Source: Rufibacter hautae
GTDB taxonomy: Bacteria; Bacteroidota; Bacteroidia; Cytophagales; Hymenobacteraceae
Direction of reading: 5' to 3'
DNA: 64,000 nt
Assembly (NCBI RefSeq): GCF_008271695.1
Contig: NZ_VKKY01000003.1
Location: forward strand, 744,001 to 808,000
In this document: positions 6,022-10,814 of the stretch, piece after piece
Layout of the letters: each line of letters starts with the position of its first letter
Position numbering within the stretch: the stretch's first letter is position 1
Position numbers and translations under genes: made by a program
The notes under the pieces: generated by a model
Database searches by the model: none
Seen by the model: the letters and a program-made list of their open reading frames with translations, nothing else
Told to the model about the DNA's origin: nothing

Positions 6022-6084
6022 TAAACTTTAAGTCTTCGTGCTTAATTTTAAATTTTGTTTCAAATACTACTTAAACTTCATAAT

Positions 6085-6963
6085 ATGTTTGATTTTAACT
6101 ACAGTGCTCCAAAAGTTATAGCTGAAATTGGTTGTAACCATATGGGAAGTATGGAAATTGCTAAAGAGCTAATACAACTAGCTAAGGAATGCAAATCTGA
6201 TTATGCTAAATTCCAGAAAAGGAATAATCTGGAACTTTTAACAGAAGAACAATACAATGCGCCCCATCCAAATCCGGCTAACTCTTATGGAGATACATAT
6301 GGTGCGCATAGAGAATACCTTGAGTTTACAAAAGAGCAACATCAGGAGCTTAAGGATTATTGCGAGAAGATTGGTATTGGTTACTCTACATCAGTTTGGG
6401 ATGTGATTTCTGCTAATGAAATCATTGAGTTAAATCCAGATTTTATAAAAGTGCCATCTGCTTGCAATAACAATTACGCAATGTTGCAAGTGCTCAGAGA
6501 TACCTATAAAGGAGAAATCCATATTTCCTTTGGTATGACAACTCAAGAAGAAGAGGAAGAAGTTGTGCGTTTCTTTGAAGAAACAAATGCAGCAAAAGAT
6601 CGGCTAGTAATATATTCCTGCACCTCTGGGTATCCAGTTCCATTTGATAATGTATGTTTATTAGAGATTAACAGACTCTATGAGAGGTTTGGAGATAGAG
6701 TGAAGACCATTGGTTTTTCAGGACACCATTTAGGTATAGCTATTGACAATGCTGCTTTCACTTTAGGTGCAAATTGGATTGAGCGCCATTTCACCAAAGA
6801 TAGAACCTGGAAAGGTACTGATCATGCTGCCTCTCTGGAGCCTACTGGTTTCAAAAAACTTGTTAGAGATTTGAATGCTACATACCAAGCTCTTAGTTTC
6901 AAAGAAGAAGAAATTTTGGAAATTGAGAAAGTGCAAAGAGCAAAACTTAAAAATCAAAAATAA
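6085..6963 (+). CDS. neuB: NeuB-family nonulosonic (sialic/KDN-type) acid synthase
   Basis: Condenses phosphoenolpyruvate with a hexosamine or mannose(-6-phosphate) acceptor to make a nine-carbon sialic-type acid. Visible family marks are VIAEIGCNHMGS, AKFQKR, KVPSACNN, the YSCTSGYP strand and GHHLGIAIDNAAFTLGA...IERHFTKDRTWKGTDHAASLEP near the C-terminus. The ATG at 6085 (292 residues) is preferred over a TTG at 6055, because the extra ten residues are not family-like. The C-terminal SAF (antifreeze-like) domain of classic 340-residue NeuB is missing, which resembles shorter 9-phosphate synthases. It is followed by the CMP-synthetase gene. The exact acid made is uncertain. Confidence 0.87.
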   Translation: MFDFNYSAPKVIAEIGCNHMGSMEIAKELIQLAKECKSDYAKFQKRNNLELLTEEQYNAPHPNPANSYGDTYGAHREYLEFTKEQHQELKDYCEKIGIGYSTSVWDVISANEIIELNPDFIKVPSACNNNYAMLQVLRDTYKGEIHISFGMTTQEEEEEVVRFFEETNAAKDRLVIYSCTSGYPVPFDNVCLLEINRLYERFGDRVKTIGFSGHHLGIAIDNAAFTLGANWIERHFTKDRTWKGTDHAASLEPTGFKKLVRDLNATYQALSFKEEEILEIEKVQRAKLKNQK

Positions 6964-6968
6964 TCTGA

Positions 6969-6990
6969 AATCCCCTCGTAAGAGGGGATT
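6969..6990 (+). terminator. Hairpin between neuB and neuA
   Basis: A perfect 9-bp stem (6969-6977 with 6982-6990) with a four-base GTAA loop is followed by a pyrimidine-rich run. It lies in the 42-base gap between two functionally coupled genes, so it may be a partial terminator that lowers neuA expression or an RNA-stability element rather than a full stop. Confidence 0.55.
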
Positions 6991-7005
6991 CTCTTTTCTT
7001 TTAAA

Positions 7006-8154
7006 ATGAAAACTGTTGCAGTAATTCCTGCCCGAGGTGGCAGTAAGTCTATACCATTAAAGAATATCAAAAGTTTCTGTGGTAAACCTTTGATATATTG
7101 GAATTTAAAAGCTTTAGAAGACGCATCCAGGATTGATAAAGTTTATGTTGCAACTGACAGTGACAAAATAGAAGAGGTGGTGTTGGGATTTGGCTTTAGT
7201 AAGGCTGAAATCTTTAGACGTTCAGATGCAAACGCTCAGGATACCTCTTCCACCGAATCAGTTCTTTTGGAATTCATTTCTAAAGAAGGTTTTTCAGAAG
7301 ATACTGCCATTATATTAGTGCAAGCTACTTCCCCCCTTACCCAGGCTGAAGATTTTGACAAAGCAATAGGTAAATATGAGGCAGAAGAGTTTGATTCCTT
7401 GTTAACATGTGCCCGTATCAAGCGATTTGTTTGGAGTGCAGATGGGGCTCCAATCAACTACAATTATTTGAGCAGACCTAGACGCCAAGATTTTGAAGGC
7501 CTTTTGCTTGAAAATGGGGCTTTCTATATAAACACTGTCGGAAATATTAAGCGAGAGAGGAACAGGCTTAGTGGTAAAATAGGTATTTATGAAATGCCTG
7601 AGTACACTTCAACTGAGTTAGACGAAGACGATGATTGGATTGTAGTGGAAATGCTCATGCAAAAGCATTTTTCAAAGAACCTGAGCAAACCTAAAATCAA
7701 AATGTTCCTTTCTGATATAGATGGTGTGTTGACAGATGCAGGCATGTATTATAGTGAGCATGGAGATGAGTTGAAGAAGTTCTGTACCTATGATGGAAAA
7801 GGGTTTGAGTTGTTGCGAAATGCTGGAATTAAAACAGGAGTAGTGACTGCTGAAAATAGACAATTAAATCAGAATAGAGCAGAAAAGTTAAAGCTTGACT
7901 TTGTTTATCAGGGTGTTAGTGATAAGCTTTCTGTTGTAAAAAAGTTATGCGAGCAGGAAGGAATTTCATTAGATGAGGTCGCTTATATAGGTGATGATTT
8001 AAATGATATAGAGCTACTTAACAATGTTGGTGTGCCTGCAACTCCAAGTAATGCATTTGCAAAGGTTAAACAAATACCTAATATCCTTTTATTAAATAAA
8101 AAAGGTGGAGAAGGGGCTGTAAGAGAGTTTGTAGAAATACTTTTAGGCTTGTAG
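7006..8154 (+). CDS. neuA: Bifunctional CMP-acylneuraminate cytidylyltransferase / KDO8P-phosphatase-like HAD protein
   Basis: Residues 1 to about 225 are a CMP-sialic-acid synthetase: the AVIPARGGSKSIPLKNI CTP-binding loop, LVQATSPLT and the FYINT segment are present. Residues about 232-382 are a KDO8P-phosphatase-type HAD domain with all four motifs: nucleophile FLSDIDGVLTD, motif II VVTAEN, the motif III lysine in VSDKL, and IGDDLNDIELL. The fusion resembles vertebrate CMAS and some Bacteroides enzymes. With all HAD residues intact, the protein may both dephosphorylate a nonulosonate-9-phosphate and activate the free acid with CTP. It follows neuB. The start ATG at 7006 is unambiguous. Which acid is used is inference. 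Confidence 0.9.
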   Translation: MKTVAVIPARGGSKSIPLKNIKSFCGKPLIYWNLKALEDASRIDKVYVATDSDKIEEVVLGFGFSKAEIFRRSDANAQDTSSTESVLLEFISKEGFSEDTAIILVQATSPLTQAEDFDKAIGKYEAEEFDSLLTCARIKRFVWSADGAPINYNYLSRPRRQDFEGLLLENGAFYINTVGNIKRERNRLSGKIGIYEMPEYTSTELDEDDDWIVVEMLMQKHFSKNLSKPKIKMFLSDIDGVLTDAGMYYSEHGDELKKFCTYDGKGFELLRNAGIKTGVVTAENRQLNQNRAEKLKLDFVYQGVSDKLSVVKKLCEQEGISLDEVAYIGDDLNDIELLNNVGVPATPSNAFAKVKQIPNILLLNKKGGEGAVREFVEILLGL

Positions 8155-8210
8155 CAGCCAATTTAATTAAGAATGTATAATAAGCTTCCTCTTTTATCCT
8201 AGGGATATCC

Positions 8211-9440
8211 ATGAATGAAAAACCAAATTTACTTGTAGTCTGCGACTATAATAGAAAAGATTTCTTAGACTTATTCAAGGTATGTAAACAAGATTTTAAT
8301 TTCTATTTTATTGAATATGCCTCTAAAAATGAAGTAAAAAATGAGGCATATAAAGAGTATGGGCAAATCTTGTTTTGGAAAGATTATAATGATGCATTTG
8401 ATTTACTAGATAAAATAAATCCTTGTAAGGTGATTTTCTTCTTTATAGAAAGTTATAACCATGTGGCACTAAATGTGGCGTGTAAGGAGAGAAGTATTAT
8501 AACTTGCCACTTGGAACATGGATTCAGAGATTATGAGTTAAAAGCTTCTTTAGAAAAAATCACAAGCTTACATAAGACAAAGAAACATCTTTACCTACTA
8601 GATGTGTTATCTAACTTTTTGGTCAAAGCTAAAACACGGCTGTTTTTTAAGCGAACTGTACAGAAAGTTAGCAGTGAACCAAAGGAGTTCTTAGAGAGGT
8701 ATTATGCAGTTAGAAGCAAAAATTCAATATTTAACACGTTTAAATTAATCAATTCTTCTTATAGAACTGCAGACCTTTATATTTCATTTAGTCCAAAAAT
8801 TTACAAAGCGCATCAACTCGCTGACCATTTAGAGGAGAACCAGAAAGTAGTTTTTATTGGGCTTCCCTCATTTGACCAATGGTCTGATCTTCAGTCATCT
8901 TCTCAACGTCTTAAAGCAGTTTTGTTTATCGATCAAGCTTTTGTGAAGCAAGGATTGCTAGGGTGGACTAAATCCTATAAAGAACGCTTTGTTTCTAAAC
9001 TTACCGAGGAATGTGGAAAAGCGGGATATATATTATTTGCAAAGATTCATCCACTAGAAGAGCCTAGTGGGTGGGATACACTGCAAAGTCAGGGTAAATT
9101 AAAACTTATTGATAATGATGGGTTTTCAGAGTTAGTTTCTAAGGTAGAAGTGGTGATGGGATTTTACTCTACATTGCTAATGCCCTTGGTGGCATTTCCT
9201 CACACTACCATCATTACACTTGAGAATCATCCGGTTGATGAGGTTTTTCCATCAAAGTTTTTAGTGGATAGTGGCGTTGGACATCCAGTTTATCAAATTG
9301 AGAATTTGTCGCAAGTACTAAGTTCAATTGATGAATTACATAAAAGTCAGCTTTTAAATAAAAAGAGTTTCATAGAAAACTGGATGTTTAAGCTGGATGG
9401 AAAAGCAGGTGAAAGACTTAGGGAAGTTTTGTTGAGTTAG
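8211..9440 (+). CDS. Unrecognised GT-B-like protein, candidate sialyl/polysialyltransferase
   Basis: I do not recognise this 409-residue protein with certainty. The second half has ILFAKIHPLEEPSGW and later VEVVMGFYSTLLMPLV, which match the layout of capsule GT-B transferases such as the alpha-2,8-polysialyltransferase and CDP-glycerol-transferase groups (KxHP followed by a G/S-rich nucleotide-binding loop). The first half has CHLEHGFRDY, a likely acceptor-site histidine/glutamate motif. There is no signal peptide or membrane segment. Its position directly after NeuB and NeuA makes a CMP-nonulosonate the likely donor. The ATG at 8214 or the one at 8211 are both possible starts. Confidence 0.55.
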   Translation: MNEKPNLLVVCDYNRKDFLDLFKVCKQDFNFYFIEYASKNEVKNEAYKEYGQILFWKDYNDAFDLLDKINPCKVIFFFIESYNHVALNVACKERSIITCHLEHGFRDYELKASLEKITSLHKTKKHLYLLDVLSNFLVKAKTRLFFKRTVQKVSSEPKEFLERYYAVRSKNSIFNTFKLINSSYRTADLYISFSPKIYKAHQLADHLEENQKVVFIGLPSFDQWSDLQSSSQRLKAVLFIDQAFVKQGLLGWTKSYKERFVSKLTEECGKAGYILFAKIHPLEEPSGWDTLQSQGKLKLIDNDGFSELVSKVEVVMGFYSTLLMPLVAFPHTTIITLENHPVDEVFPSKFLVDSGVGHPVYQIENLSQVLSSIDELHKSQLLNKKSFIENWMFKLDGKAGERLREVLLS

Positions 9441-9442
9441 CA

Positions 9443-10740
9443 ATGAGTTTAAAGTTATTTAAATCTTTTGTAATCTATAGAGTTGCTGGATTTTTTGGAG
9501 CGGCGGCTAACTTCCTGGTTTTGCCCATCTTTTTTAGGTATCCTACTCTAGAGGATTATTTAATTTAAACAATATATAATTCTTATTTTTTTACTTTGGT
9601 TCCCTTAATTGGTTGTTTTTTTTCTGATTATTTATCTGTAGAATATTACCTTATAAAAGATGAATAAAGAGTATGCTTCTTTGTTTTCTTCTGTACAAGT
9701 TATTCCACTTTTTCCTTTTGTTTTGTTTCTGATAGCTTCAATATTATTTAATAAACCCCTAGAGAGTTTGCTAAATATTCAAGCAGTTTCTGAAAATTTG
9801 CGTTATGGCTTTATTAACTATATATATTATTAGTTTCTCTGTCTTCTTAGTATTTAGAAAAAAGCCACACATTATATTGTTTTCATTTTTTCTAAAGCAA
9901 TACCTGAAATTTTATTGTTACTCCTTCTTTTAGTTAAATACCACTTAGGATGGCATGGGAGAATATATGCTTGGTTTATTTCTACAAGTGTTTATTTCGT
10001 TTTTTTTCAATTGTGTACCTCTAAAGAGAAAAAATAATAACATTTGATACTAAAAAGAAATATTATTTTGTATGAATTTTTTATGTGATGCCCTTAATTC
10101 TTTATATAATAAATAGATTTGTTATCAGCAATTCAGATAGAATTTTAATGGCAAATACTATAGGGATAGCAGATGTTGGTTTTCATGTCATGGCAGTTCA
10201 AATATCTAGTGTCCTTTTTATATTTGTAAACATTTTATAAAAGATATATACACCTTATGTTTATGAAAGGTTAGCTAAGTTGATTAAGTAAAAAAGGTAT
10301 AAATCCTTCAGCTTAGTTATGCTTTTTAGCGTGTTTATTGATCGGAATTTTTATTATTTTGATGGGAAGCCCAATTTTGTTTGGATCTATTGTTAATGAA
10401 AAATTCAAGGCTTCCATTCCTTATATATTCTGGATTTCTCTAAATTATGTATTTTGAGGGTTATACATGAATTTTGTTGCTTTTATTTAATACTTCTGAA
10501 AAAGCCTGCACATGGCATATGTAGCTATCGTAAATAATGTTACTAATATCTTACTTAATTATTTTTTAATTAAAAATATGGTGTTGTAGGGATTGCTTAT
10601 GCTACTAGTATCTCATATCCTATTACCTTGGTTTTGGTTTTTTATTATTCTATTATGCTATTACCCCTTCCTTGGTTTTCATTTAAACAGACTTTCAGCA
10701 GAGGGTTTGTCAAAGTTGGTAATTGGGGTTGTAAGATGGT
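9443..10740 (+). pseudogene. Decayed second Wzx-type flippase
   Basis: An ATG two bases after the previous stop opens a flippase-like frame (residues such as FFGAAANFLVLPI) that stops at 9566-9568. Flippase-like stretches continue in shifting frames: one ending at 9665-9667, a +1-shifted frame from 9663 (reading NKEYASLFSSVQVIPLFPF), YHLGWHGRIYAWFISTS near 9,950, then RFVISNSDRILMA and IYTPYVYERLAK near 10,110-10,280. Each is interrupted by stops. Order and spacing of the pieces match one MOP-family protein of about 430 residues, so this is one gene with many lesions. It probably once exported the nonulosonic-acid-containing unit. Confidence 0.85.
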
Positions 10741-10814
10741 TTGAATGAAATTATAAAGCTTGGACGATTAAAAATTAGGTTTTGAAACTTTGAAAGGTTA
10801 ATTTTTCCTTCTAT

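Follow-up and report, generated by a model that had tools for sequence, protein, structure and literature searches.

A SAF-less NeuB synthase and a NeuA-HAD fusion protein in Rufibacter hautae as a probable route to CMP-KDN through a 9-phosphate intermediate

In the current analysis, we describe a nonulosonic acid cassette in Rufibacter hautae (Bacteroidota), which lies in a 64,000-nucleotide stretch of contig NZ_VKKY01000003.1 (positions 744,001–808,000 of RefSeq assembly GCF_008271695.1; hereafter the window, to which all gene positions refer); the host genome of 5.84 Mb in 8 contigs is listed as 100% complete. The core of the cassette is a pair of plus-strand genes, one encoding a NeuB-family synthase without a SAF domain (6085–6963) and the other a 382-residue protein (7006–8154) that is predicted from Pfam and NCBI models to be a fused CMP (cytidine monophosphate)-nonulosonate synthetase and 9-phosphatase. 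A preliminary description of the window had proposed that such a pair, with no NeuC gene in the locus, fits the formation of ketodeoxynonulosonic acid (KDN) from mannose-6-phosphate (Man-6-P) through a 9-phosphate better than the classic NeuC-NeuB-NeuA route.

The synthase gene is read from an ATG (the mechanical open reading frame, ORF, begins at a TTG at 6055), and its product matches PF03102 in Pfam with 223.9 bits. The lack of a C-terminal SAF domain, claimed in the preliminary description, was borne out by the absence of any Pfam SAF match at E ≤ 1, and 30 residues follow the last synthase motif, compared with 80–98 in NeuC-linked synthases, in those fused to a CMP-synthetase, and in those of the Bacteroides thetaiotaomicron (BT) type; Pfam detected SAF in each of the three long-tailed synthases to which it was applied (loci L037, L038, and L041). 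The KDN genes of B. thetaiotaomicron are BT1713 (phosphatase), BT1714 (synthase), and BT1715 (CMP-KDN synthetase). Loss of SAF as a marker of KDN synthesis was considered and ruled out: of four synthases adjacent to BT1713-like genes, the two tested in Pfam (L037 and L038) keep the domain and the other two have tails of equal length, so the absence of SAF says nothing for KDN and its earlier place among the features fitting KDN has to be given up. Judged from the sequences compared, the loss is a trait of the window's NeuB subfamily; without SAF, we do not class the protein among BT1714-type synthases, although its mode of action may be the same. It scored 189.8 against the NeuB_NnaB equivalog TIGR03569, under the cut-off of 399.65, and the second PF03102 match in the genome is a 3-deoxy-D-arabino-heptulosonate-7-phosphate synthase. 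The predicted structure (mean pLDDT, the predicted local distance difference score, 84.5) best matched NmNeuB (template-modeling score, TM, 0.80), with the 3-deoxy-D-manno-octulosonate-8-phosphate synthase 1o60 at 0.62, and such model-based matches add nothing on the substrate.

In the second protein, the fusion of a CMP-synthetase to a complete HAD domain was confirmed. The NeuA domain (7006–7680; PF02348 over residues 4–208) precedes a C0-type HAD phosphatase domain of the KDN-9-phosphatase type (7690–8151; about residues 229–382), and every HAD motif is present: D237xD239 (motif I; 7714–7722), T281, K307, and D330-D331. The HAD domain reached 183.7 bits against the NCBI KDN-9-phosphatase equivalog NF058599, just over the cut-off of 180, and 119.9 against the KdsC equivalog NF007019, under the cut-off of 208. 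Its best solved relative is 3e81 (156.2 bits), which we take to be the B. thetaiotaomicron KDN-9-phosphate (KDN-9-P) phosphatase BT1713, named in the Protein Data Bank (PDB) as an acylneuraminate cytidylyltransferase. E283, R291, and K294 of the fused protein align with E56, R64, and K67 of 3e81, the three residues presumably proposed as annotation markers; 4hgq carries Ala at E56 and 4hgr at both E56 and K67, so the depositors had singled out these positions. The window's domain reads E-R-K there, unlike the RRS or RRE of 3mn1 and 2p9j, as do 84 of the 89 HADs in the loci retrieved; the five exceptions (L052, L053, L055, L056, and the second HAD of L124) read D-R-R or R-R-E. The structural model of the fused protein is weak (mean pLDDT 72.7, from a five-row alignment), its VIA rows covering residues 1–225, all of the nucleotidyltransferase kind, and the HAD part being barely covered.

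Compared with solved structures, the NeuA domain scored highest against 9t4z (153.9 bits; 42% identity), followed by mouse CMAS (127.9), the V. cholerae enzyme (78.5), 9ftb (61.7), and NmNeuA (49.9), while structure comparison alone placed the four best chains within 1.1 Z. The title of 9t4z names PpNeuA, a CMP-Kdn synthetase, which we read as the Prymnesium parvum enzyme. In a tree of 45 cytidylyltransferases, 15 fused NeuAs formed one group with 9t4z and mouse CMAS (support 98/97), and this group contains no NeuC-linked NeuA. In P. parvum, the CMP-Kdn synthetase reportedly did not accept N-acetylneuraminic acid (Neu5Ac), and the Kdn-9-P synthetase converted only Man-6-P among seven sugars (PMC6200933).

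The NeuB tree, built from 44 of 66 collected sequences with the SAF columns removed, divides at a support of 100/97 into 28 and 16 sequences. The larger side holds 19 members of the window clade, four BT-type synthases (L037–L040, which stand in for BT1714 and lie beside BT1713-like HADs 59–64% identical to 3e81), two cytidylyltransferase-NeuB fusions, the HAD-fused or HAD-adjacent NeuBs of L050 and L054, and the second NeuB of L108; the smaller holds 12 NeuC-linked NeuBs, NmNeuB, and three other PDB sequences, with long branches for two of those three (8h2c and 1vli) and for 6ncs. The labels sia and leg for the NeuC-linked NeuBs were assigned here by whether or not a sequence shows 67–71% identity to NmNeuB. 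The second L108 NeuB has no HAD in its fetched stretch and 13 of 81 loci show none, several ending at contig ends, so the term "phosphatase-linked side" refers to a position in the tree and does not mean that every row has a proven HAD neighbor. In a second tree of 33 of the 44 sequences plus human NANS (the sequence used agrees in length and at 11 residue positions with PMC13214540), NANS also fell on the phosphatase-linked side. Within the family of G060, BT1713 matched in 0 of 86 genomes.

This split is largely tracked, as far as sequence comparison goes, by a basic signature of R46 (KFQKR; codon 6220–6222), H75 and R/K76 (TYGxHR; 6307–6312), and K/R243 (TWKGTD; 6811–6813), residues that may bind the substrate phosphate. 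Arg46 occurs in 95 of 95 rows on the phosphatase-linked side and in 0 of 21 NeuC-linked or NmNeuB rows; His75 in 93 of the 95, all except L050 and L054; and position 243 is Lys in 90, Arg in 3, and Trp in L050 and L054, with Lys in 1 of the 21. Written in the order R46, Y72, G73, H75, R76, K243, the signature reads RYGHRK in 82 of 86 rows of the SAF-less clade (RYGHRR in 3, RYLHRK in 1; L043 and L077, both 1,108,067 long, probably represent one contig, so one row is doubled), in 4 of 4 BT-type synthases, and in two of the three CMP-fused and second L108 rows (RYGHKK in the third), with RYIYKW in L050 and RYIYRW in L054; the full pattern was found in 0 of 21 NeuC-linked or NmNeuB rows and 0 of 3 other PDB rows. 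The window NeuB is thus most likely, on its tree position and residues, a nonulosonate-9-phosphate synthase of the KDN-9-P type.

Named genomes were scanned with an alignment of SAF-less NeuBs, giving at least 591 stretches, of which at least 541 were confirmed; the best 80 were kept and, together with the window, make up 81 loci that represent the nearest part of a larger set. The closest kept relative is from a Rufibacter sp., whose NeuB shares 83% identity, although the scan may omit records that are closer still. Hosts other than the window's comprise 68 Bacteroidota, 6 Campylobacterota, 2 Fidelibacterota, and one each of Planctomycetota, Altimarinota, Lentisphaerota, and Pseudomonadota, a spread that suggests transfer between phyla, allowing for binning errors in metagenome-assembled genomes. 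A NeuA-HAD fusion is present in 53 of the 81 loci, always on the same strand as NeuB; it follows NeuB in 46 (overlapping or within 60 bases in 39) and precedes it in 7, all Flavobacteriaceae. These seven (L127, L129, L132, and L134–L137) have diverged fusions whose HADs are 34–38% identical and keep E-R-K. In 13 loci (type B: L061, L075, L078, L082, L089, L092, L094, L097, L099, L100, L102, L103, and L124), a cytidylyltransferase of another kind is accompanied by a stand-alone HAD; the remainder have such a cytidylyltransferase only (7), a HAD only (2), a NeuA only (2), or none of these (4). A HAD of the window's kind is held by 68 of the 81 loci, and all 68 keep E-R-K and the catalytic residues. 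The fused HAD group (91/92) also takes in five type B HADs, with that of L090, a HAD-only locus, just outside; if the HAD acts on what NeuB makes, the pairing of the same HAD family and NeuB clade with a different cytidylyltransferase would be expected. Type B loci may possibly make a different nonulosonate: in L061, the only one with both middle genes identified, a Gfo/Idh oxidoreductase and a short-chain dehydrogenase/reductase (SDR) lie in between, and the ORF searched in L099, which lies between its cytidylyltransferase and HAD genes, matched no Pfam family. Other fusions were also seen (among L041, L042, L050, L038, and L040), namely cytidylyltransferase-NeuB (581/597 residues), HAD-NeuB (475 residues), and a divergent NeuB-cytidylyltransferase (558/559 residues).

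A profile search found no NeuC in the locus or elsewhere in the genome, in keeping with the earlier statement for the locus: the two PF02350 proteins of the genome are WecB, passing the WecB model (491 and 473 against a cut-off of 210 bits) and failing the NeuC model (112 and 81 against 235.9). No NeuC was seen in the 81 loci either, where two weak matches scored about 74 bits (the start of one resembles WecB), and in a phylum sample NeuC was present at E 1e-60 in 47 of 247 genomes, the window's not among them. Neither of the two findings named in the preliminary description as refuting was seen, as the NeuB groups apart from the NeuC-linked synthases and the genome yielded no NeuC, and its interpretation is supported; its 9-phosphate part stands well, while its choice of KDN over other nonulosonates can only be inferred.

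In the pathway that we propose, the SAF-less NeuB would condense phosphoenolpyruvate with a hexose-6-phosphate, most likely Man-6-P, to KDN-9-P, the HAD domain of the fused protein would remove the phosphate, and the NeuA domain of the same protein would then join free KDN to CMP. The domain make-up, the intact catalytic and specificity residues, the kinship of the domains, the lack of a detected NeuC, and the conservation of the gene pair are directly established; from them we infer the reactions, the sugar, and the order of the steps, as well as the donor and acceptor of the third gene's product (see below). A 9-phosphate step is very probable, and the cassette as a whole probably makes CMP-KDN via KDN-9-P with dephosphorylation and activation in one protein; that the product is KDN we regard as likely, and Man-6-P as its source is our best guess.

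Several observations weigh against this proposal. The margin over NF058599 is 3.7 bits, and its cut-off of 180 runs through the clade, with the fused HAD of L060 at 181.2 and those of L018, L019, and L132 under it at 177.0, 176.2, and 138.7 (the stand-alone HAD of L061 scores 180.3). The wider KdsC subfamily model TIGR01670 was passed as well (133.3 against 106.95), as it was by the BT1713-like HAD of L037 (147). The window NeuB has no SAF, unlike the BT-type synthases, and does not branch as their sister; BT1714 is represented by proxies only, and the window NeuA is distant in the tree from the cytidylyltransferases of BT-type loci. L050 and L054 are HAD-linked without the signature His75 and Lys243, though their HAD reads E-R-K. 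As to supply, neither a type I phosphomannose isomerase (PMI) nor a bifunctional phosphoglucose isomerase/PMI was found in the genome, where a small PF01050 cupin (168 residues; 40.5 against 23.6; L180) is the only candidate seen and may supply Man-6-P.

Two other phosphorylated routes are each unlikely. In an animal-like route, NeuB would use N-acetylmannosamine-6-phosphate (ManNAc-6-P) to make Neu5Ac-9-P and the fused protein CMP-Neu5Ac, as might be suggested by the placement of human NANS on the phosphatase-linked side and by the kinship of the NeuA domain to mouse CMAS as well. However, the NanE match in the genome is below cut-off (20.5 against 27), and the two PF07221 proteins adjoin ORFs that we take to resemble mannan-degrading enzymes and are therefore probably cellobiose/mannobiose epimerases. 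The NeuB also lacks the SAF domain, whose Arg314, mutated in 4ipi and 4ipj according to their titles, presumably contacts the N-acetyl group in NmNeuB. Equally improbable is a route from a different hexose-6-phosphate to another nonulosonate: the branch of the window NeuB clade is long (1.22 changes per column), and the two added oxidoreductases of L061 suggest that products may vary within the clade, but the BT1713-type specificity residues are retained and the relatives of the NeuA include a CMP-Kdn synthetase. Least probable is that the HAD domain is only an oligomerization module and NeuB takes a free sugar. In its favor, vertebrate CMAS has the same domain order and a C-domain reported to be tetrameric and to lack phosphatase activity (PMC8636478); against it, mouse 3ewi has lost the nucleophile and motif IV acids that the window and 68 of 68 HAD-bearing clade loci kept, and stand-alone HADs of the same family accompany the same NeuB clade.

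Downstream of the pair, on the same strand, the third gene (8211–9440; 409 residues) encodes a PF07388 polysialyltransferase-family protein (55.9 bits against a gathering cut-off of 23.3; E 6.7e-15), perhaps a candidate transferase using the CMP-sugar; in the proposed pathway it would probably move KDN onto a surface polysaccharide that the genes around it would make. A 24% identical homologue sits directly after the BT1713-like HAD in L037; none was found at E 1e-8 in the other 80 named loci, and in L060, the nearest relative, the gene that follows the fusion could not be aligned with it (E 0.029). Nearby lie glycosyltransferases, a nucleotide-sugar dehydrogenase above the TIGR03026 cut-off, and an SDR-type sugar-nucleotide enzyme and a flippase-like protein, both under every listed model cut-off; with this content the region resembles a gene cluster for a surface polysaccharide. 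After the PF07388 gene, and before the next glycosyltransferase, come about 1.3 kb (9443–10760) of short, broken plus-strand frames of membrane type, which give the impression of perhaps a decayed flippase gene. PADLOC gave no match.

The signature residues divide phosphatase-linked from NeuC-linked synthases in this sample and could aid the annotation of Neu5Ac and KDN synthases, which are described as inseparable by annotation in a report of KDN in granular sludge (PMC10483923), one of the environmental polysaccharides in which KDN is now being found. If the proposed pathway is true, a protein that is both phosphatase and CMP-synthetase would be of practical use in CMP-KDN production, and an active relative of the inactive CMAS domain would open the origin of that domain to testing. 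It is possible, though we consider it doubtful, that the cassette is a large bacterial counterpart of the animal pathway (eukaryotic pathway and NANS residues as in PMC5811610 and PMC13214540), with a SAF-less, NANS-side 9-phosphate synthase and a working bifunctional form of CMAS; in that case, vertebrate CMAS would carry, in its dead phosphatase domain, a relic of such a 9-phosphatase/activator. Among the papers listed by searches of the open-access PMC library, none had a listing that showed a SAF-less NeuB together with a NeuA-HAD fusion.

Among known systems, the NeuC-NeuB-NeuA (Neu5Ac) and NeuC-linked legionaminate-type routes share the NeuB and NeuA families with the cassette, but no NeuC was found here and the NeuB lies across the 100/97 split. 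In Serratia, capsules with KDN:Neu5Ac of about 20:1 are attributed to a NeuB with an added COG1082 domain (PMC9000132). Vertebrate CMAS resembles the fused protein in its order of NeuA then C0-type HAD and in the shared NeuA group, and had been cited in the preliminary description as a dual-function precedent; this did not hold, as the mouse C-domain 3ewi, unlike the window's, has lost its catalytic residues (Asn for the nucleophile, N-E for the motif IV acids), and neither mouse CMAS nor its C-domain is reported to give phosphatase activity in vitro (PMC8636478); the same source notes the C-domain in vertebrates and some bacteria. A shared origin of the bacterial and vertebrate HAD fusions was considered as well, and in the HAD tree 3ewi sits on a branch of 2.38 and takes no placement (bootstrap not settled, correlation 0.986). 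With the 9t4z system the cassette shares a kin NeuA domain and, if correctly read, a Man-6-P route, whereas the proteins there are separate and no phosphatase homologue was reported found (PMC6200933). The B. thetaiotaomicron Kdn route is likewise reported to start from Man-6-P (PMC6200933), and the window has a phosphatase of the same family with its specificity residues kept, a NeuB on the tree side of the BT-type synthases, and no detected NeuC; it differs in joining phosphatase and cytidylyltransferase in one protein, in a NeuB of another subfamily, and in a distant cytidylyltransferase domain. Thus, as read here, the cassette is a variant of the known KDN pathway rather than a new kind of pathway.

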